A DNA stretch of 22,093 nt, from IMG/VR virus record IMGVR_UViG_3300009076_000057, positions 1 through 22,093 of that record. One strand, given 5' to 3'. The stretch comes from a virus. The notes under the pieces are model-generated. The model did no database searches and was not told the DNA's origin. It was given only the letters and a program-made list of their open reading frames with translations. Below, one piece after another: positions 10,192 to 19,482 of the stretch; position 1 is the first letter of the stretch; each line of letters starts with the position of its first letter. A program made the position numbers and the translations under genes.

Positions 10192-10905
10192 TTAGTTCTT
10201 TAGTTCTACTAAAGCTTTGCGAAGTTTACTCGCACGAATACGGGTTTTTTCTGCTAATTTTAATACTTGGGTCTTCCTATGTTCTGGTAAGCCATCTACA
10301 TAGTCTGCTAATTTATCAAAACAGTATGCAAAAGTTTCTATAGGAGTAGCCTTGCCACTTAATAAGTGAGGCAAGTAGTTGTATACTGCTGCAGTTTCTC
10401 CCGCCATCCCGTACTTAAACGCCTCGTAGCTTCCTATGCAGCTATCTAGTATAGGGTCTGATTTGTGATTAATATACCTGGGCATATATAAGCATTTTTT
10501 ATCCCCTAAAATACCTGAATCTTTTGTAGGTAGCTCATACCACTTATCAGGGTTTATTATAAATATAGATAAATCTACAAAACCTTTATTAATAGGGCTG
10601 TTAATTAGTGCGTAAGACTGGCTATGCTTTGGATGATCTACATAAACGCCTTCCCTGCTGAGAGCTAGCGCGTATTGACTCAACTTACTATCTGGAGGTA
10701 AGTCCCCCTGTTTAATATTAAGGACAAGACCACTTGTAACCACCAAAGAAAGCCCTGTTGCATTAGCTAGTGCAGTACCTACTTTATTTTTTGCCTTAGA
10801 GGGTATAACCCTATACTTAGCTCTTGGCATATTTTTCTTTATTGAGTTGACCGTGAGGGCGGTCAAGTCATTACATTCAAGGATTAGGATTTCTAGGGCT
10901 GACAT
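10192..10905 (-). CDS. Putative GT-A-like protein downstream of tail fibres
   Basis: A 237-aa soluble protein. The N-terminus (LEILILECNDLTALTVNSIK, then AKYRVIPS) and the following GTALANATGLSLVVTSG resemble the first beta-alpha units of GT-A nucleotide-sugar transferases, where a strand, a helix and an 'N-x-G' region precede the metal site. A clear DxD is not visible at the expected place, so this is only a weak fold guess. The C-terminus is basic and helical (KTRIRASKLRKALVELK). The start at 10905 lies inside the preceding GT-B-like gene (29-base overlap), with AAGG about 8 bases upstream, implying coupled production of the two. It could equally be an unclassified phage protein. Confidence 0.6.
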   Translation of the reverse strand: MSALEILILECNDLTALTVNSIKKNMPRAKYRVIPSKAKNKVGTALANATGLSLVVTSGLVLNIKQGDLPPDSKLSQYALALSREGVYVDHPKHSQSYALINSPINKGFVDLSIFIINPDKWYELPTKDSGILGDKKCLYMPRYINHKSDPILDSCIGSYEAFKYGMAGETAAVYNYLPHLLSGKATPIETFAYCFDKLADYVDGLPEHRKTQVLKLAEKTRIRASKLRKALVELKN

Positions 10906-11752
10906 GAGGTAGATCCTTATAATGGTTGAAAAATGCGTCTATATACTCTTGGGGAGTATCAGATGCTACTGGTATCATGCCTGAGTATTTAGCAGATAAT
11001 ATAGATCTTAACTTATTTACATCTGCTTTACCGCCTTTCCATATTGTATTATATAATGCACTGTAAGTTAAGTGTTTATGTCCGCTACCAAATAAGTATG
11101 TAGTTTTTCCTTGTGCTAAAGCTACTATACCCATCTCTGAGTTTTCACAACAGCCTACAATACTCGCTTCTCTCATTAGCTGGTGACCAGATATCTTTTT
11201 ATCTATTATATTCTCTTCACCATACTTATGCTTTAAATTAGCTACTAGTCCTGGAGCCGTTATAGGGTGGCATTTAAGTTTCGCACCTTGCTTAATTGCA
11301 TTCTCCATTTTATCCCAATTAAGTGCGTCATTAATAATATTAGTACCTGGTAGAAATATTACAAAATCGTGTTTAGCTTTTGCTTTACGAAGTCTATACT
11401 TATCTACACTATTGTTCGCTAGATCCTCAAAGATTCTCTGACCTTCATCAGTTATCTTTTCTTGCGACGCTTCTCGCATTATTTTATGGCTAAAATGCGC
11501 TCCAGCAGCTCGTAGGTAAATAAACTTAGCCATTGCATCAGTATATACATACCCATGAATATTGTCTGGATCGCCCATATCATACCAAACATCATACTCT
11601 ACGCGTGTTCCTTTAGGGCCATTGTCTGGCAACAAAAGCCTTAATTCTGCTAACTCTTGAAGCTCATTACCTCTAGTAATATTTCCAGACTTAAAGAAGT
11701 GTGCTGCTGCATTGCCCAGCTCATCTTTTTCAGCTAATCTTTCCAAGGCCAT
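10877..11752 (-). CDS. Putative GT-B-like glycosyltransferase (capsule-synthesis-like)
   Basis: A 291-aa protein whose second half has the pattern of the nucleotide-sugar half of capsule-type transferases (KpsC/CapS or CDP-glycerol transferase-like). It shows a strand HDFVIFLPG near 128, then KCHP (H162-P163) after a basic strand, a spacer helix, HQLMREASIVG near 190, and ENSEMGIVALAQGKTTYLFG (203..222), the loop that normally holds the donor phosphates. No signal peptide or membrane segment is present. It lies directly downstream of the giant Thr-rich fibre gene, so glycosylation of that fibre is an attractive but unproven role. The start at 11752 has GAGGAG 8 bases upstream, inside the small coiled-coil ORF. 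The fold call is moderate; activity and acceptor are inference. Confidence 0.6.
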   Translation of the reverse strand: MALERLAEKDELGNAAAHFFKSGNITRGNELQELAELRLLLPDNGPKGTRVEYDVWYDMGDPDNIHGYVYTDAMAKFIYLRAAGAHFSHKIMREASQEKITDEGQRIFEDLANNSVDKYRLRKAKAKHDFVIFLPGTNIINDALNWDKMENAIKQGAKLKCHPITAPGLVANLKHKYGEENIIDKKISGHQLMREASIVGCCENSEMGIVALAQGKTTYLFGSGHKHLTYSALYNTIWKGGKADVNKLRSILSAKYSGMIPVASDTPQEYIDAFFNHYKDLPHVSPRNPNP

Positions 11753-11891
11753 TCTTTAACTCCTCTATTGTATCTTCAAGTTCTTCTATTCTATCTTCTG
11801 TTTCACGGAAGTGTTCCATGATTATTTCAAGAGTAACTTCTAGTCTATGCGACATACTCTTTACTTCTTGTTCTATTAAGCTTCTGTCCAT
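11730..11891 (-). CDS. Small coiled-coil protein, 53 aa
   Basis: This ORF runs from an ATG at 11891, inside the last codons of the giant fibre gene, to a TGA inside the start of the next gene, so it fills the 120-base gap. The peptide is almost entirely predicted helix with heptad-like spacing of Leu, Ile, Met and Phe and dense charge (RETEDRIEELEDTIEELKNG), which indicates a coiled coil. It overlaps the fibre gene by 16 bases and the transferase gene by 23. The Shine-Dalgarno sequence is weak, so translation probably depends on coupling. A small oligomerisation or chaperone factor for the fibre is possible; nothing proves it. Confidence 0.7.
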   Translation of the reverse strand: MDRSLIEQEVKSMSHRLEVTLEIIMEHFRETEDRIEELEDTIEELKNGLGKIS

Positions 11892-14800
11892 TGTGATCCA
11901 TCCCAGTAACGTGTATTATGTGCCGAGCCTGAAGCAACTTCTGTTTGAACCGCACTACCTGTCAATCTTTCATAGATTACAGTGTCAGTAACATTAGAGG
12001 TTGCTGTTGCCAGCGTAGTTATCGCTAGAGTTTCAAATACTGTCGTTATAGACGTATCGGTAGCTCTATTAGTAGCCTGCGAGGTGGCGTAAGCAGTAGT
12101 GTATGCAGTAGTCGTACTTAGTGTAGTAGCTGCATTTGTTCCATACACTGTACTAAATACTGTAGTAGTAGCTCTTAATGTAGTATTAGAAGTATTAAAT
12201 ACAGTATCAAAAACTGTGCTGCTAACTCTTGTAGTATTGCCTACAGTGTTATAAACTGTGTTAGTGGCCTTTATAGTATCAAAGGCAGTAGTAAATGCCG
12301 TCGTAGTGCTAAGCGTGGTTTCAACACTGGTGCCAAATACTGTAGTAAACGCTGTAGTAGTGCTTAAAGAAGTATTAAATACTGTGCTAGTGTTGAATAC
12401 GGTATTCGTAGGCTTGCTTGTGTTAAATACCGTAGTAGTATTAAACGTAGTAGTTCTTGCAGTGCCTAGTGCCGTATCAAAAGCAGTAGTAAACGCCGTA
12501 GTAGTATTAAATACTGTGCTAGTGCTAAAAGCAGTAGTAGTGGCTCTGGTTGTGTTAAATACCGTAGTAGTATTAAAAGCAGTAGTAAACGCTGTAGTAG
12601 TGCTTAAAGACGTGTTAAATGTGGTGCTGGTGCTCCTATCTGTAGCAATACTTGTCTGTGTAGCTGGAGAAGTATCAAACAAAGTATTTGTAACCAGAGT
12701 AGTAGTCTTGCTAGTATTAAATACGGTGGTAAAGGCCGTAGTAGTTGCTCTACTTGTAGCAGTGGCCTTACTAGTGCTAGTTGCTCTGCTAGTCAATGTG
12801 CCATTAGAGGTGGCGTATACTGTATTTGTACTACCAACAGTGGCAATACTAGTAGTAAACACAGTAGTAAATGCAGTAGTGGTTGCCTTACTGGTGCCTG
12901 TTGCTCTACTCGTAACAGTATTTCTGCTAGTTTCAGTTGCTAGTGCGGTATTATATACCGTGGTGGTAGCTTGGCTAGTTCCTCTGCTTGTAATAAAAGT
13001 AGTAGTAAACGCGGTGCTAGTACTTAAGCTTGTAGCAGTGGCATAGGTAGTAGTAGTGGCTCTACTCGTATTAGTGGCTTTAGATGTATTATATACAGTG
13101 CTAGTCGAACGATTTGTAGCGATACTAGTAGTGTAGACGGTGGTAAACGCTGTGGTAGTGCCAAATGTTGTTGTAGTGCCTCTATTTGTGGCTGTGTTTC
13201 TGTTAGTCTCCGTTGCACGAGCAGTATTATACGAAGTAGTGGTATTACGATCTGTAGCAATGCTTGTGTTAAAAGAGGACACAAAAGTAGTAGTAGTAGC
13301 AAAAGTCGTACCAGTTGCCTTACTAGTGCCAAAGACGCTAGTAGTAGTTTTTGTTGTTCCTATACCTGTATTATAAGAGGTGGTATATGCAGTAGTAGTA
13401 CCAAACGCAGTGGTTGTTGCTTTTGCAGTATTATACGAAGTAGTAGTATTACGAGCAGTACCGATACTTGTAATATAGGTAGTAGTAAACGAGGTAGTAG
13501 TAGCTCTACTTGTGCCCGTTGCTTTTGCCGTATTATACGAAGTAGTAGTATTACGGTTTGTAGCTATAGCAGTAGGTACGACAGTTACTGTATTGAAAGT
13601 AGTTAAGGTAGCCTTAGCGGTATTAAATACAGTAGACGTAGTATAGTTAGTAACTGTAGCCTTACTTGTTCCCGTAGCCCTAGAGGTAGCCGTATTTTTG
13701 GAGGTACCTGTCGCTTTCGCAGTATTATATGCAGTAGTAGTATTACGGCTTTCTGCAGTATTACGCGCGGTATTAGGTGCTGTATTTTTAGAAGTATTAA
13801 ATACAGTATTGAACGTAGTACCAAACGTAGTAGCAGTAGTATATGCGGTATTAGTAATATAGGTAGTAACAAAAGTAGTACCAGTAGTATATGCAGTAGT
13901 AGTAGTATAACTAGTAAGAGTAGCTCGGCTCGTCGGCTTGCTAGTATTCTTAGACGTCAATCTAGAGGTGCTGCGCGAAGTCAATCTAGAGGTATTACGA
14001 GAAGTAGAACGAGAGGTAGAACGAGTAGTACTACTTGTTCTTCTTCTCACATTATAGTAGTAGGTAATAACACCTTTATAGTCAAATGTCCACTGTAGTG
14101 TTCCTCGCTCATAATCAAAACCGCCGTTAGATACATATGTCGTGCTAGAGCCAGTTCCCCCGGTGACTTCGGTGGTTTCGTTCCATAGGATGTAGATGGG
14201 GTTGGTTTCGTTGGAGTTATATGACCAATAGTAGGTAGGATCATTTAGATCGTAGAAATAAGCACTCCAAGCATACGTAACAAGCGTATTAAAGGTCGTA
14301 TTAAAAGTAGTAACGAATGTTGTATTAAAAGCAGTGTTGAAAGTAGTAGCATAGGTGGTGACATATGTAGTATTGAAGGACGTAGTAGTATTACGACTTT
14401 CAGCAGTACCACGGCTTTCAGCAGTATTACGAGAAGTATTACGACCTTCAGAGGTGTTACGACTTTCTGCAGTATTACGCGCTGTATTACGAGAGGTAAG
14501 AAGACCAGTATTAAAGGTAGTAACGAAAGTAGTGACAAAAGTAGTAGCAGTAGTATACGCAGTAGCAGTAGCCTTGCTAGTAACAAAAGTAGTAGACGTA
14601 TTAAAAGACGTTACAGTATTAAATACAGTTGAGGTATTAAAAGATGTAGTAGTGTTACGGCTTTCAGCAGTGCCTATGCTTGTATTATAGGTGGTAGTGG
14701 TATTCTTAGACGTAGCAGTATTTCTAGTGCTATTAAAGCTAGAAGTATACGCAGTATTAGTAGCTTTGCTTGTTACAAAAGTAGTAGACGTATTAAAAGC

Positions 14801-16480
14801 GGTAGTAGTGCCTCTGGAAGTGCCTATGCTTGTATTAAAAGACGAGACAAATGCTGTACTAGTAGCTTTGCTTGTTACAAAAGTAGTAGTAGTGGCTCTG
14901 CTCGTAGTAGTGGTTTTAGAGGTGCCTATGCTTGTAACAAACGTAGTAGTATATGCAGTAGTAGTAGCAATACTGGTATTGAATGCGGTAGTAGTATCAC
15001 GTGCAGTAGCAGTAGCTCGTGCGGTGCTAATACTAGTACCAAAAGTGCTTATAAAAGCAGTATTAGTAGCTTTGCTTGTTACAAAAGTAGTACTTGTCCC
15101 AAAAACAGTGTTAGTATTAAAAGTAGTAGTAGTAGCGCGAGAAGTGCTAGTGCCTCTACTAGTGCCTATGCTTGTATTAAAGAAAGACGTATAAGCAGTA
15201 TTTGTTGCTTTCGCTGTATTGAAAGTAGTAGTGGTATTAAAATTAGTAGTAGTCGCTATACTCGTATTAGTATTAAATACTGTAGTAGTATCTCGCGCTG
15301 TAACAACACTTGTATTATAAGATGTGTTAAACGAAGTAGTCGTTGCCTTACTTGTGTTAAAAGTAGTAGTTGTGGCAAAGCCTGTGCCGGTAGTAAAGGC
15401 AGTAGTGGTTGTAAACGAAGTAGTAGTACCTCGTGATGTGCCTACGCTTGTATTAAAGAAAGACGTATAAGCAGTATTTGTTGCCTTAACCGTATTAAAT
15501 ACAGTTGAGGTATTGAAAGAAGTTGTAGTGTTAAATGTAGTTGTAGTTGCAAATACAGTACTAGTGCCTCTCGAAGTTCCGAGGGCTGTATTAAAAGTAG
15601 TAGTAAAGGCAGTAGTGGTATCAAAATTTGTACCAAATACAGTAGTGGTGTTAAAAGACGACACATACGCAGTGTTAGTACCGCGAGCTGTGTTGAAGAC
15701 TGTGTTAGTAGCTCTAGCTGTCCCACGACTGGTCTGAGTGGCTCTAGCAGTATTAAATACAGTTGAGGTGCCTCTGCTTGTGCCTGTCGCTCTGTTCGTA
15801 GAGGTAGCTTTGCTAGTGATCAAAGTAGTTTGGAATACGGTATCGAATACTGTACTACGAGAAGTAGAAGTCGCGATGCTCGTATTAAATACTGTGTTAG
15901 TAGAGCGAGTAGTGCTGGTAGCTCTAGCTGTATTAAATACTGTGGAAGTAGCCCTACTTGTTACTGCACTTGTATCGAAGGCAGTAACATATGCGGTTGT
16001 AGTAGCTCTGCTTGTTACAGCAGAAGTTAATAATACTGTAGTAGTACCAATTAAAGTTTCAAAAGTAGTAGTAAAGGCAGTCGTGGTACCCCTGTTAGTT
16101 TCTAGGGCAGTATTAAATACCGTGGTAAAAGCAGTTCCAGTACCTCTACTAGTAGATGCAACAGTGTCAAATACAGTACTAAATGTAGTTATGGTACTAA
16201 TGCTTGTAGGCGAGACGGTATCAAATACAGTTAGATACGCCGTGCTAGTGCTTATGGTAGTGGTTTGGCTAGTATTGAAGGTAGTCTCAAACGCTGTATT
16301 AGTATCGAATACCGTACTAGTAGATCGAGTAGTGTCATAAATAGCAGACCAAGAAGTGCTAAAAGTATTGGCACCTTTAGCCAGGACATAGTTAACCGCA
16401 CGAAGTGTACCCGCGCTACCTTTTACTACAATTTGGGAGGGCTCTACTAGGCCACTCCCTGTCCATACCTTGATTGTCAT
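11876..16480 (-). CDS. Giant threonine-rich repeat protein, fibre-like (1534 aa)
   Basis: The N-terminus (1..40; VWTGSGLVEPSQIVVKG, LRAVNYVLAKG) resembles the tail-associated 'V-x-G-G-x-W-R-x-V' strand repeats of phage tail proteins. Residues 41..732 and 815..1500 are low-complexity sequence, roughly two-fifths Thr. They read as tetrads xxxT, whose second residue is aromatic (AFNT), basic (SRNT) or aliphatic (SIGT), alternating with dyads xT (rarely xS or xE). All units have even length, so Thr and the bulky residues stay on one face of an extended chain and Ser, Ala, Asn and Gly on the other, as in beta structure. An aromatic domain (733..814) divides the two halves, and a non-repetitive tip (1501..1534, NTRYWDGSQWTEA) ends the chain. 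Many synonymous Thr codons show selection on the protein rather than the DNA. The start lies 2 bases after the stop of the 565-aa fibre gene without a good Shine-Dalgarno sequence, so it is coupled. A structural fibre or receptor-binding role is inferred from position. Confidence 0.88.
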   Translation of the reverse strand: MTIKVWTGSGLVEPSQIVVKGSAGTLRAVNYVLAKGANTFSTSWSAIYDTTRSTSTVFDTNTAFETTFNTSQTTTISTSTAYLTVFDTVSPTSISTITTFSTVFDTVASTSRGTGTAFTTVFNTALETNRGTTTAFTTTFETLIGTTTVLLTSAVTSRATTTAYVTAFDTSAVTSRATSTVFNTARATSTTRSTNTVFNTSIATSTSRSTVFDTVFQTTLITSKATSTNRATGTSRGTSTVFNTARATQTSRGTARATNTVFNTARGTNTAYVSSFNTTTVFGTNFDTTTAFTTTFNTALGTSRGTSTVFATTTTFNTTTSFNTSTVFNTVKATNTAYTSFFNTSVGTSRGTTTSFTTTTAFTTGTGFATTTTFNTSKATTTSFNTSYNTSVVTARDTTTVFNTNTSIATTTNFNTTTTFNTAKATNTAYTSFFNTSIGTSRGTSTSRATTTTFNTNTVFGTSTTFVTSKATNTAFISTFGTSISTARATATARDTTTAFNTSIATTTAYTTTFVTSIGTSKTTTTSRATTTTFVTSKATSTAFVSSFNTSIGTSRGTTTAFNTSTTFVTSKATNTAYTSSFNSTRNTATSKNTTTTYNTSIGTAESRNTTTSFNTSTVFNTVTSFNTSTTFVTSKATATAYTTATTFVTTFVTTFNTGLLTSRNTARNTAESRNTSEGRNTSRNTAESRGTAESRNTTTSFNTTYVTTYATTFNTAFNTTFVTTFNTTFNTLVTYAWSAYFYDLNDPTYYWSYNSNETNPIYILWNETTEVTGGTGSSTTYVSNGGFDYERGTLQWTFDYKGVITYYYNVRRRTSSTTRSTSRSTSRNTSRLTSRSTSRLTSKNTSKPTSRATLTSYTTTTAYTTGTTFVTTYITNTAYTTATTFGTTFNTVFNTSKNTAPNTARNTAESRNTTTAYNTAKATGTSKNTATSRATGTSKATVTNYTTSTVFNTAKATLTTFNTVTVVPTAIATNRNTTTSYNTAKATGTSRATTTSFTTTYITSIGTARNTTTSYNTAKATTTAFGTTTAYTTSYNTGIGTTKTTTSVFGTSKATGTTFATTTTFVSSFNTSIATDRNTTTSYNTARATETNRNTATNRGTTTTFGTTTAFTTVYTTSIATNRSTSTVYNTSKATNTSRATTTTYATATSLSTSTAFTTTFITSRGTSQATTTVYNTALATETSRNTVTSRATGTSKATTTAFTTVFTTSIATVGSTNTVYATSNGTLTSRATSTSKATATSRATTTAFTTVFNTSKTTTLVTNTLFDTSPATQTSIATDRSTSTTFNTSLSTTTAFTTAFNTTTVFNTTRATTTAFSTSTVFNTTTAFTTAFDTALGTARTTTFNTTTVFNTSKPTNTVFNTSTVFNTSLSTTTAFTTVFGTSVETTLSTTTAFTTAFDTIKATNTVYNTVGNTTRVSSTVFDTVFNTSNTTLRATTTVFSTVYGTNAATTLSTTTAYTTAYATSQATNRATDTSITTVFETLAITTLATATSNVTDTVIYERLTGSAVQTEVASGSAHNTRYWDGSQWTEA
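12671..13528 (-). repeat. Super-repeat array B (3 x 102 bp, then 4 x 138 bp)
   Basis: Residues 985..1270 of the giant protein. Unit starts fall at 13528, 13426, 13324 (34 residues each) and 13222, 13084, 12946, 12808 (46 residues each), with no offset. Units begin AKAT, SKAT, ARAT, ALAT or SNGT. The order of tetrad runs is 4, 2, 1 in the 34-residue units and 4, 2, 1, 1, 1 in the 46-residue units, the reverse of array A. Single tetrads here are often basic (NRNT, SRAT, SKAT), where array A has mostly aromatic ones. Confidence 0.85.
14039..14284 (-). other. Central aromatic-rich domain of the giant protein
   Basis: Residues 733..814 break the Thr repeat completely. The segment has four Trp and many Tyr (TYAWSAYFYDLNDP, TYYWSYNSNE, IYILWNETTE, TLQWTFDYKG, VITYYYNVRRR) and looks like a small beta-rich folded domain. 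Thr-rich sequence resumes immediately after RRRT. It lies near the middle of the chain, with regular arrays at similar distance on each side (162 residues before, 170 after), which suits an exposed tip domain. Confidence 0.75.
14771..15490 (-). repeat. Super-repeat array A (3 x 138 bp, then 3 x 102 bp)
   Basis: Residues 331..570 of the giant protein. Unit starts fall at 15490, 15352, 15214 (46 residues each) and 15076, 14974, 14872 (34 residues each). Each unit begins with a tetrad ending AT (VKAT, SKAT, AKAT, SIAT). Between dyads, a 46-residue unit has runs of 4, 1, 1, 1 and 2 tetrads, and a 34-residue unit has runs of 4, 1 and 2. The four-tetrad run typically ends in an aliphatic and then a basic tetrad (SIGT, SRGT). 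Nucleotide identity between copies is only partial. Confidence 0.85.
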
Positions 16481-16481
16481 A

Positions 16482-18179
16482 TTATACTATATACCATACA
16501 TAGCCAGCGGGCTTGCCTGTGCCATCCGTAGGGACAGTTGAAGTAACCTCCCACATATCATTAGTAAGATCAGATAAAGCATCTGGTGCAGCTGTTAAAG
16601 AGGTGTAATCTATAGCTAGACCTTCTACATAGCTTTTAGTTACCACACTTTGTACTCTGCCAGTAGTAAAGTATTGATTAGTTCCTTCTGCAAGATTAGT
16701 TGTAGTTTGATTGGCTAAAGAAGATACGGTACCTGTAACATTACCGGAAAGATTACCAGTTACGTTACCTGTTAGATCGCCACTTAGTGTAGTAGCTTCT
16801 ACGGAATCTATTACAAGCGTGCCCAACTCAAAGGAAGCGTGTGCTGTATTAATATCACCCTCAGGTTCTGGGTCATAGGCTTTGAAAACTTTGAATTTTT
16901 GATCTGTAATATCAAAGAACATACCTATGTGAGTATACCCTACACCGGTTGCTCCTGTATTTCTATTAGAGGCCCAGCCACTATCAACATTTAGAGGTGC
17001 TGCATCCCCGTCCCACTTGTCTCCAGAGGTGTGCCCCGTAGTTGCATTAAAATATATACTAATATTGCTAGCTAGTAGCTGTGCAGCACCAGTGATGTCT
17101 ACGCCAGTGGCTTCTGTAGTTGCAAAGTTATCAAAAGACCACTCGAAAGTATCTACGCCACCTGTGCCTGTGCCAACCCCGTCGATTCTTACATAGTAAT
17201 GCTTAGTAGTAGTACCTTCATAATGCCCCGTAAAGATAGCATCATCAAGGCCGCTACCTGTAAAAGCTGTGTTAGCAGCACCAATAGTATCGCCCGAGTT
17301 TAGGTAGATAAAAGTATCATCAACAGCTAAATTGCTAAGACTAACGGTTGATTGGTTGCCAAGAATAGACAAATCGCCCGCTACTGTGAGGTTGCCGTCT
17401 ACACGAGCGTCGCCCTCTACACGTAGAGTTTTAAACTCGTTTTCTTTTGTAGATACATAAATACAACCATTGCTGGCATCAGAAACAAGACAGATACCAA
17501 CTTCTGTATCCCAGTAAGGGTAAGTAGGTGCACCGGTTTGTAAAGTTCCAGGCGATACAGCTACATGAACAGGAGAACCGGCAGTGTAAGCAGAAGTATC
17601 AAGACCTTGTACAATACCTCTTGTAGTTACAAAACCATACGTAGCATTCTCAATAGTGTGTGTGGCTAGGCCTACTGCCCTTGCGTCGTCGTATGTAGTA
17701 GCATCAGCTAGTGCAATGGTGGGAACGTCACTAAAAGAACCAGATAACACTACGGGCGTACCATCAGAAATTGTACTACCGGTATTATTATATACTCGTA
17801 CCCACTCTTCTTGTCCTACCTGCAGAGTTATCTCCGCTTCGGAGTTATAAACAGCTAATGCTTTATTTGCATCGTCATAAAATATACGACCTTCTGAGTG
17901 AGCAGGGTTGCTAGTAGTGGTTAAATCAATATGATCAGTAGTAACAAGGGTAGCTAGAGCTGCATTGACACGCGCATCAGTATAATATAGATTACTGCCT
18001 TCTGTAAGTTCGCCTGTATTTAGAGGGTTCAGCTGTACAATATAATCGTCGCCATCATTTCTCTTAATGAAAACCTTGCCATCATACGTGTTGATAGCAA
18101 TTTCACCGAGTTGTAATTGGGCAGTAGTAGGTACGACACCCTGCACTGCAGAGCGTCGTAATTGAATTGTTTGTGCCAT
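16482..18179 (-). CDS. Tail fibre protein (565 aa)
   Basis: The N-terminus (MAQTIQLRRSAVQGVVPTTA, then LGEIAINTYDGKVFIKRNDG) is the common phage fibre attachment or head domain. After it come TEGSNLYYTDARVNAAL, a central beta-rich region (GSTISDGTPVVLSG, GFVTTRGIVQGLD), beta-strand repeats (VDGNLTVAGDLSILGN), a Gly/Thr-rich domain, and a short Asn-Gly-Thr repeat (LSGDLTGNVTGNLSGNVTG). The C-terminus ends KPAGYVWYIV. It is therefore a trimeric side-fibre-like or structural tail protein. The start at 18179 has AGGAGAG nearby in a leader containing a palindrome. Its stop lies 1 base before the start of the giant Thr-rich protein, which suggests the two are made together and may be parts of one fibre. 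Confidence 0.85.
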   Translation of the reverse strand: MAQTIQLRRSAVQGVVPTTAQLQLGEIAINTYDGKVFIKRNDGDDYIVQLNPLNTGELTEGSNLYYTDARVNAALATLVTTDHIDLTTTSNPAHSEGRIFYDDANKALAVYNSEAEITLQVGQEEWVRVYNNTGSTISDGTPVVLSGSFSDVPTIALADATTYDDARAVGLATHTIENATYGFVTTRGIVQGLDTSAYTAGSPVHVAVSPGTLQTGAPTYPYWDTEVGICLVSDASNGCIYVSTKENEFKTLRVEGDARVDGNLTVAGDLSILGNQSTVSLSNLAVDDTFIYLNSGDTIGAANTAFTGSGLDDAIFTGHYEGTTTKHYYVRIDGVGTGTGGVDTFEWSFDNFATTEATGVDITGAAQLLASNISIYFNATTGHTSGDKWDGDAAPLNVDSGWASNRNTGATGVGYTHIGMFFDITDQKFKVFKAYDPEPEGDINTAHASFELGTLVIDSVEATTLSGDLTGNVTGNLSGNVTGTVSSLANQTTTNLAEGTNQYFTTGRVQSVVTKSYVEGLAIDYTSLTAAPDALSDLTNDMWEVTSTVPTDGTGKPAGYVWYIV

Positions 18180-18228: not shown

Positions 18229-19482
18229 TTAGAACGTTCCGCCGTCTACATTTGTGAGGGTTACAGCACCAGAGGTAACTGTGAACGAATTAGTATCAAA
18301 AGAAGCAATACCTTTAACAGAGGTAGTAGCAAGTGCTACACTATAAGTCACCGTACCAGCAGACTCTGCAACAGATAGGTTAGTGCCTGCAAAAGTAACA
18401 CTATTACCTGAACCAATGGCGGTAGTGTTGGAACCGTCTGTTACATTAAAGCTAGTATAAATATCGTATTCAGTAGGTAAAGGAATATTATAATGAGTGC
18501 CAGTACTATTAGTAAACTGCCAACGATCATCACCCTCGTCCCACACCAACTCTACATTACCTTCTGTACCTCGTTCAATCTCAATACCACCATTCTGCGT
18601 GGGGGTTCCGGCTTCGTCTGAGTTTAACGTAATTACAGAATCACCGATATTTACTGTATTTGAATTAACAGTAGTGGTAGTTCCGTTTACAGTTAGGTCA
18701 CCCTCTACGATAACATTGCCAGAGGTTGTAAGCGTTCCTGCCTGAATATCATCAGTTGTTAGCTGTCCATTAACAGCTATATCATTAAATGTAACGTTAT
18801 CTGTGGTGCCTACGGCCTGTCCAATAGAGAGGGTTACTTTATTGTTAGCAGAGTCTACGGCAGTTGTTACACCAGTGCCGCCTTCAAAAGTAAGGGTGTC
18901 ATCGGCTAAAGAAATTGTATCTGTACCAGTGTCACCGGCAATACCTAGATTAGTACTAATAGATGCGGAGCCCGCCGCGGTTAGACGACCCTTCGAGTCT
19001 ACCGTAAACGTAGGGATAGATGTAGCAGAGCCATAGTCGCCAGCAGTTACACCAGTATTTACCAAAGTAAGGCTAAGCTCTACACTACCAGTGCCATCGA
19101 AGTTTACTGAACCAGAAGTCGCATCTCCAGAAGTACTAAAAGCTCGTGCGGTTTCTAATGCTGTCGCTGTTGAGGCATTTCCTGTTACTTCACCTGTCAG
19201 AGGACCACTAAAAGCAGTTGCCGTGATAGTACCTGCTGAAAAATCACCAGAGCTGTCACGCAGTACAAGAGTACTAGCGGTGTTTGCAGATGCAGCATTA
19301 TCAACTATATCCGTGTAATACTTGCCGCCAATAACATCAATATCGCCTGAACTGCCACCAGGGCGTCCAATAAATAGTTTATGATCTCCCGCTACAACAG
19401 CAGAATATGCTAATTCACCTTGCGCTAGTGCTGTGGGTACAGCGGTGGCCGTACTGCGTTTGATTTTTATGATTTGAGCCAT
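18229..19482 (-). CDS. Tail fibre / structural protein (417 aa)
   Basis: The N-terminus (MAQIIKIKRSTATAVPTALA, then HKLFIGRPGGSSGDI) is a diverged copy of the N-terminal domain of the 565-aa fibre. It is followed by repetitive beta structure: FSAGTITATAFSGPLTGEVT, NVTFNDIAVNGQLTTDDI, VEGDLTVNGTTTTVNSNTV and GDSVITLNSDEAGTPTQNGG. Such 'LTVxG' repeats are usual in fibre and adhesin proteins of marine myoviruses. The C-terminus ends TLTNVDGGTF. GGAG lies upstream of the ATG at 19482. It belongs to the same leftward operon as the other tail genes and probably forms a fibre segment or a baseplate-linked fibre. Confidence 0.82.
   Translation of the reverse strand: MAQIIKIKRSTATAVPTALAQGELAYSAVVAGDHKLFIGRPGGSSGDIDVIGGKYYTDIVDNAASANTASTLVLRDSSGDFSAGTITATAFSGPLTGEVTGNASTATALETARAFSTSGDATSGSVNFDGTGSVELSLTLVNTGVTAGDYGSATSIPTFTVDSKGRLTAAGSASISTNLGIAGDTGTDTISLADDTLTFEGGTGVTTAVDSANNKVTLSIGQAVGTTDNVTFNDIAVNGQLTTDDIQAGTLTTSGNVIVEGDLTVNGTTTTVNSNTVNIGDSVITLNSDEAGTPTQNGGIEIERGTEGNVELVWDEGDDRWQFTNSTGTHYNIPLPTEYDIYTSFNVTDGSNTTAIGSGNSVTFAGTNLSVAESAGTVTYSVALATTSVKGIASFDTNSFTVTSGAVTLTNVDGGTF

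Follow-up and report, generated by a model that had tools for sequence, protein, structure and literature searches.

A threonine-rich viral protein with two mirrored arms: a probable phage tail fibre that folds out and back

The window analysed here is the whole stretch of 22,093 nucleotides in IMG/VR virus record IMGVR_UViG_3300009076_000057. An ORF at 11876-16480 on the minus strand encodes a protein of 1534 aa that contains 35% Thr and a single His. The features of this gene and its neighbours are as follows.

11876..16480, minus strand: whole gene of the Thr-rich, mirror-symmetric protein, a probable tail fibre, defined by the ORF, the parse and the mirror register
16337..16480, minus strand: N-terminal base, residues 1-48 (MTIKVWTGSGLVEPSQIVVKGSAGTLRAVNYV...), conserved in the family (52-94% identity in relatives)
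14285..16336, minus strand: arm A, residues 49-732, proposed outgoing strand of 203 units by the parse, pairing with arm B at i+j=1554
14039..14284, minus strand: head domain, residues 733-814, proposed tip and receptor-binding domain, placed by the mirror centre (777), homologous heads in relatives, a profile match to an insert of RL2RES_230 and a fold match in BFVD
11981..14038, minus strand: arm B, residues 815-1500, proposed returning strand of 203 units by the parse and the mirror register
11879..11980, minus strand: C-terminal base, residues 1501-1534 (VIYERLTGSAVQTEVASGSAHNTRYWDGSQWTEA), conserved in the family (68-73% identity), with a DUF2510-like YWDGxxW below the Pfam cut-off
16482..18179, minus strand: upstream tail-fibre gene (PHROG tail fiber 17885)
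18229..19482, minus strand: upstream tail-fibre or structural gene, similar to cyanophage fibres
10877..11752, minus strand: downstream gene of unknown function (phrog_26179), which adjoins the fibre gene in many relatives and is present in many contigs without the Thr-rich fibre
10192..10905, minus strand: second downstream gene, function unknown, conserved in both of the relatives that were aligned (L004 and L005)

The gene is encoded within a tail-fibre cluster, and a J-like tail tip protein is encoded upstream of the fibre in an orthologous contig (L002). This placement points to a tail fibre of a tailed phage, an assignment that we consider, jointly with the out-and-back fold described below, to be highly probable. 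Profile searches of the downstream genes against the PDB gave nothing meaningful. Vibrio T4-like phages (KVP40) carry phrog_26179 as well, and so do Caulobacter podoviruses, where it lies downstream of the tail fibre. In two near-identical contigs, the two downstream genes are followed by an ATP-grasp-like gene (395 aa, recognised by eye; L004 12778-13965, L003 4130-5317). A relative of the fibre is encoded in a prophage of SAR92 clade bacterium H921 (JAOALD010000003.1), flanked by a collagen-like gene immediately upstream and by a phrog_26179 homologue on the other side. This prophage gives a host for the fibre family.

The initial annotation had described the Thr-rich halves as dyads (xT) and tetrads (xxxT) that follow each other without a slip of register and without two dyads side by side. 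Both statements were upheld by a strict parse into xT or xxxT units, in which a T ending was free and S or E was tolerated as a rare ending. The parse spanned residues 49-732 and 815-1500 completely, with 0 register slips and 0 adjacent dyads in either arm. Arm A consists of 139 tetrads and 64 dyads (endings: 191 T, 7 S, 5 E), and arm B of 140 tetrads and 63 dyads (199 T, 3 S, 1 E). The annotated extent of nearly 1400 residues was right as a count, with an interruption by a non-repeat domain of 82 residues (733-814) that breaks the grammar into two stretches. A scripted parity test against shuffled controls, which had been suggested with the annotation, revealed no parity breaks. When the same even-position letters were randomly arranged, ~26-28 T-T-T runs per arm were obtained, compared with 0 observed, and 35-38 non-T runs per arm, compared with 12 in arm A and 4 in arm B. 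The Thr grammar is thus far from chance. Small residues (Ser, Ala, Thr, Asn, Val, Gly) occupy the face opposite the Thr face. Among relatives, the rule against adjacent dyads is strong but has exceptions: a count that ignored register gave 14 TxTxT in L005.

We scanned all values of c for a match between residue i and residue c-i. One clear solution was found, c=1554, at which the two arms match over the whole fibre with 0 indels. On the Thr face, 185 levels were T:T, 138 were non-T:non-T, and 16 were mixed. The correlation at this register was r=0.905, and that of the next best offset was 0.29. In 2000 control trials, the blocks of arm B were shuffled with the grammar preserved and the best offset was taken each time; the mean r was 0.20 and the maximum 0.373. 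The arms are equal in unit count (203 each) and nearly equal in length (~690 residues). As read from the sequence, an out-and-back register of the fibre chain is close to certain. Super-repeats of 46 residues occur at residues ~290-470 and ~1080-1260 (15071-15613 and 12701-13243), and are visible in arm A as DNA repeats of 138 bp. Secondary mirror peaks were located at multiples of 46 (1508, 1600 and 1646).

The non-T residues that face each other across the arms are complementary: an aromatic residue lies opposite Arg/Lys/His or an aliphatic residue, and almost never opposite its own kind. In the window fibre, Phe/Tyr was opposite Arg/Lys ~85 times and opposite Ile/Leu/Val ~33 times, whereas Phe:Phe occurred once and Arg:Arg never. 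Across 36 members, the Thr face showed 2897 T:T levels, 1515 aromatic:basic pairs (819 when shuffled) and 5 basic:basic pairs (282 when shuffled); partners were permuted within each protein, and the members are related, so that these counts are not independent. His was tallied as aromatic, and His:Tyr made up 122 of the 146 pairs scored as aromatic:aromatic. Phe favoured Arg and Tyr favoured Lys/His, with a stratified odds ratio of 11; 32 of 34 members agreed in direction. The spacing of non-T levels was 4 residues (1002 cases) or 6 residues (906) in nearly all cases. The family supplies a residue-pairing code that can be tested. Some subfamilies (L020, L018 and related members) often pair His with Tyr (117 Y:H vs 4 F:H family-wide), and such pairing is perhaps sensitive to pH or metal.

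Relatives were gathered from IMG/VR with the conserved ends and the downstream gene as queries. We analysed 39 complete proteins of ~310-1780 aa, including that of the window, together with an extra upstream-ORF set of up to 2084 aa; natural lengths ranged from about 230 to 2084 aa. One leading mirror constant was found in 39 of 39 complete proteins (z 3.7-8.8), and the mirror symmetry extended to the upstream-ORF set. The mirror correlation was 0.45-0.68 in all complete members except L021 (0.33), and at most 0.28 in control fibres (T4 gp37, gp34, three neighbours and the J-like protein). The z-values of family and controls (2.6-4.3) overlap, but the sizes of the correlation do not. For members with a start codon assigned by motif, subtracting the length from the constant left 20-23 at 311-1781 residues, with L021 as the exception, and 20 in the member of 2084 residues. 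Five proteins (L049, L052, L055, L059 and L147) had unplaced starts and hence gave different values. Two very short proteins of another subfamily (L154 and L157) had offsets of 16-17 and weaker mirror signals. Because the constant minus the length is stable at 20-23, arm lengths evidently co-vary, and it is the two ends that fix the register. The same register could be applied to two separate contigs of one metagenome, L002 ending in arm A and L010 starting in arm B. When they were paired by the end-derived register, 150 T:T levels, 110 non-T pairs and 13 mismatches were obtained, and at residues ~560-600 both patterns diverge from the window protein jointly in the two arms.

The gaps in the arms of close relatives were even in length in 297 cases and odd in 1 (protein pairs not independent), which supports the annotated view of a beta-type rod with strict in/out parity under strong selection. 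Most gaps came as equal-length pairs at mirrored sites of both arms. L022 and L023 differ by gaps of 14+4 in arm A (at 93 and 116) and 14+4 in arm B (at the mirrored 98 and 120); mirrored gaps were also found in L052/L049 (40 and 40), L076/L082 (12+8 and 12+8) and L028/L029 (2 and 2). Exceptions were L014/L172 and L107/L108. Against clean pairing, a few relatives (L021 and L108) have indels in one arm. In L021 the proximal half pairs at the standard register of 403 and the distal half at 423, as from a 20-residue indel in one arm. L107 and L108 are essentially identical except for 22 residues absent from arm B of L108, and the distal register shifts by 22; this gap represents either a natural intermediate or an assembly collapse. 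The first part of the fibre gene in L104 (4905-7880) is apparently out of frame and its mirror signal is lost, likely through a frameshift or an assembly error. How equal indels arise and persist at two sites up to thousands of bases apart is an evolutionary question raised by this family.

The head domain of 82 residues is homologous in many relatives, with the core GGxxYxRG; a minority carry other inserts. A profile of 25 heads matched RL2RES_230, a protein of 381 residues from Rhizobium phage RL2RES, at its residues 194-255, with 21 bits and E 1.9e-8 in a one-sequence search, but with an hhalign probability of only 15%. The matched domain is inserted between two glycine-rich halves. AlphaFold2 modelling of the window head with ~40 and 48 arm residues gave a mean pLDDT of 69, with the best head strands at 80-93 and the flanking arms at only ~44-69. 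The predicted strand borders (2-23, 26-43 / 126-140, 148-155, 158-168 of 170) fit a mirror at i+j=170, with low confidence in the arms. A PDB fold search with the head model gave nothing below E 0.001. In BFVD, the best viral Foldseek match (E 7.5e-5, probability 1.00, TM 0.33) was a 381-residue RL2RES protein named Gp38 receptor-recognising domain protein, which we identified by length and phage as RL2RES_230. The match to a Gp38-type adhesin gives moderate support to a receptor-binding role of the head. For L084, a full short relative of 335 aa, the AlphaFold2 monomer reached pLDDT 43.5, and a PDB fold search with this model gave no match.

Residues i and 1554-i come to lie at one level most simply if the chain runs out and then back. 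We regard such a tail fibre, with the head at its tip, as very likely the best explanation of the sequence pattern. Arm A would run from base to tip, the head would turn the chain, and arm B would return antiparallel alongside arm A. Every second side chain would lie on one face, and each level would hold T:T or a complementary bulky pair (Phe/Tyr against Arg/Lys/His or Ile/Leu). The two termini together would make up the base, by which the fibre would be attached to the phage, and the head in the centre would be displayed at the far end, where it would most likely bind a host surface receptor. The arms may form antiparallel beta structure with side-by-side hydrogen bonding, and by analogy with the T4 needle the fibre may be a trimer of hairpins with six strands. 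Its length would be about 200-225 nm if fully extended (~685 residues × 3.3 angstrom). The balance of the evidence leans towards an architecture that has not been described before: one chain whose halves, of up to ~1000 residues, complement each other as antiparallel beta strands through a code akin to base pairing (T:T, F:R, Y:K/H), vary freely in length and evolve by matched indels in both strands. Designers of beta fibres could use it as a model when a given length is wanted. The family also indicates where a large group of uncultured phages probably carries its host-recognition tip, and here a natural protein discloses its fold topology and register over some 1400 residues through its sequence alone.

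Arm A of one chain might instead pair with arm B of another in a strand-swapped or intertwined oligomer. Phage fibres are usually trimers, and interchain pairing satisfies i+j=1554 equally, so that the sequence does not separate the two arrangements; a hairpin within one chain is simpler, and interchain pairing still needs a chain that goes out and back. We consider it the less likely arrangement, with an appreciable chance of being correct. The initial annotation, which had missed the mirror between the halves, had favoured a continuous beta rod or solenoid, in which the mirror would arise by chance or from shared repeat units. Solenoids typically show units of even length and Thr columns, and the fibre does contain the 46-residue super-repeat; however, repeat units alone yield r=0.2-0.37, and the mirror extends over the full length without an indel, with complementary pairs and with indels in mirrored pairs. 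The strict-parity rod of beta type stands, but halves mirrored in one register are accounted for by an out-and-back hairpin and not by a single one-way rod or an ordinary solenoid. We regard the one-way form as very improbable.

Two further readings concern the origin of the pattern, and we give each almost no weight. An unstructured low-complexity expansion, such as a mucin-like or disordered linker, would fit the Thr content, the local tandem DNA repeats and the low AlphaFold2 confidence. It is contradicted by the mirror register, by complementary partners up to 1400 residues apart, by the strict parse without slips or adjacent dyads, and by codon diversity. Paired Thr codons had an identity of 0.367 (0.382 by chance), and, being no more alike than chance, they argue against recent DNA copying. 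The protein pattern might instead be a by-product of a hairpin-forming palindrome in the gene or its mRNA, and DNA palindromes are common in general. This was rejected, because no mirror or inverted repeat was present in the DNA of the fibre gene: reverse-complement identity at mirror positions was 0.339, compared with 0.334 (sd 0.009) elsewhere, and reverse identity was 0.286, compared with 0.279 at other offsets. Thus, no simple copying event made the protein pattern.

Searches of Pfam and PHROG gave no fibre family profile above the cut-off for the window protein, and a PDB sequence search gave no match to the gp37 tip or any other solved fibre. tblastn against cultured phages gave no match with the N-terminus, the C-terminus or the head, nor with the whole protein, for which the search was weakened by the low-complexity filter. 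We found no description of such a protein in the open-access literature. Two Pfam matches were rejected as relations: DUF2510, below the cut-off and confined to the C-terminal 14 residues, and coronavirus nucleocapsid, which reflects low complexity. The annotated statement that no described fold has this grammar held in so far as no family with the sequence grammar was found; an out-and-back fibre fold is, however, known from the needle of T4 gp37, on a small scale.

The phage spikes T4 gp5, gp12 and S16 gp37 have trimeric beta-helices that run one way, with octapeptide or other repeats and without a mirrored second half. Like the proposed window fibre, they are long beta fibres of tailed phages. 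The likeness to RL2RES_230, a Gp38-domain adhesin, is modest and confined to the sequence and fold of the head; its body is glycine-rich and lacks Thr arms and a mirror, whereas the window arms are Thr-rich. Tentaclins, a phage receptor-binding family named from metagenomes, have C-lectin and Ig domains (PMC10743442). They share with the window fibre the word 'hairpin' and a metagenome origin, but are unrelated. In the T4 gp37 needle, the chain runs out to a receptor-binding head and then returns, and its arms are ~50 residues long. The tips of T4 gp37 (long tail fibre) and lambda Stf are elongated needles of six-stranded antiparallel beta structure (PMC7291167). Judged from its sequence register, the window fibre would share the out-and-back layout with equal arms around a head. 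The T4 needle is held by HxH iron motifs, which the window fibre lacks, and its short arms contrast with family arms of up to ~1000 residues built of Thr ladders and aromatic:basic pairs. T4 gp37 showed no comparable mirror of a Thr pattern when tested. Because of the absence of detectable homology and of HxH, the longer arms and the different pairing code, we keep the family apart from that of T4 and file it as a putative out-and-back fibre in its own right.
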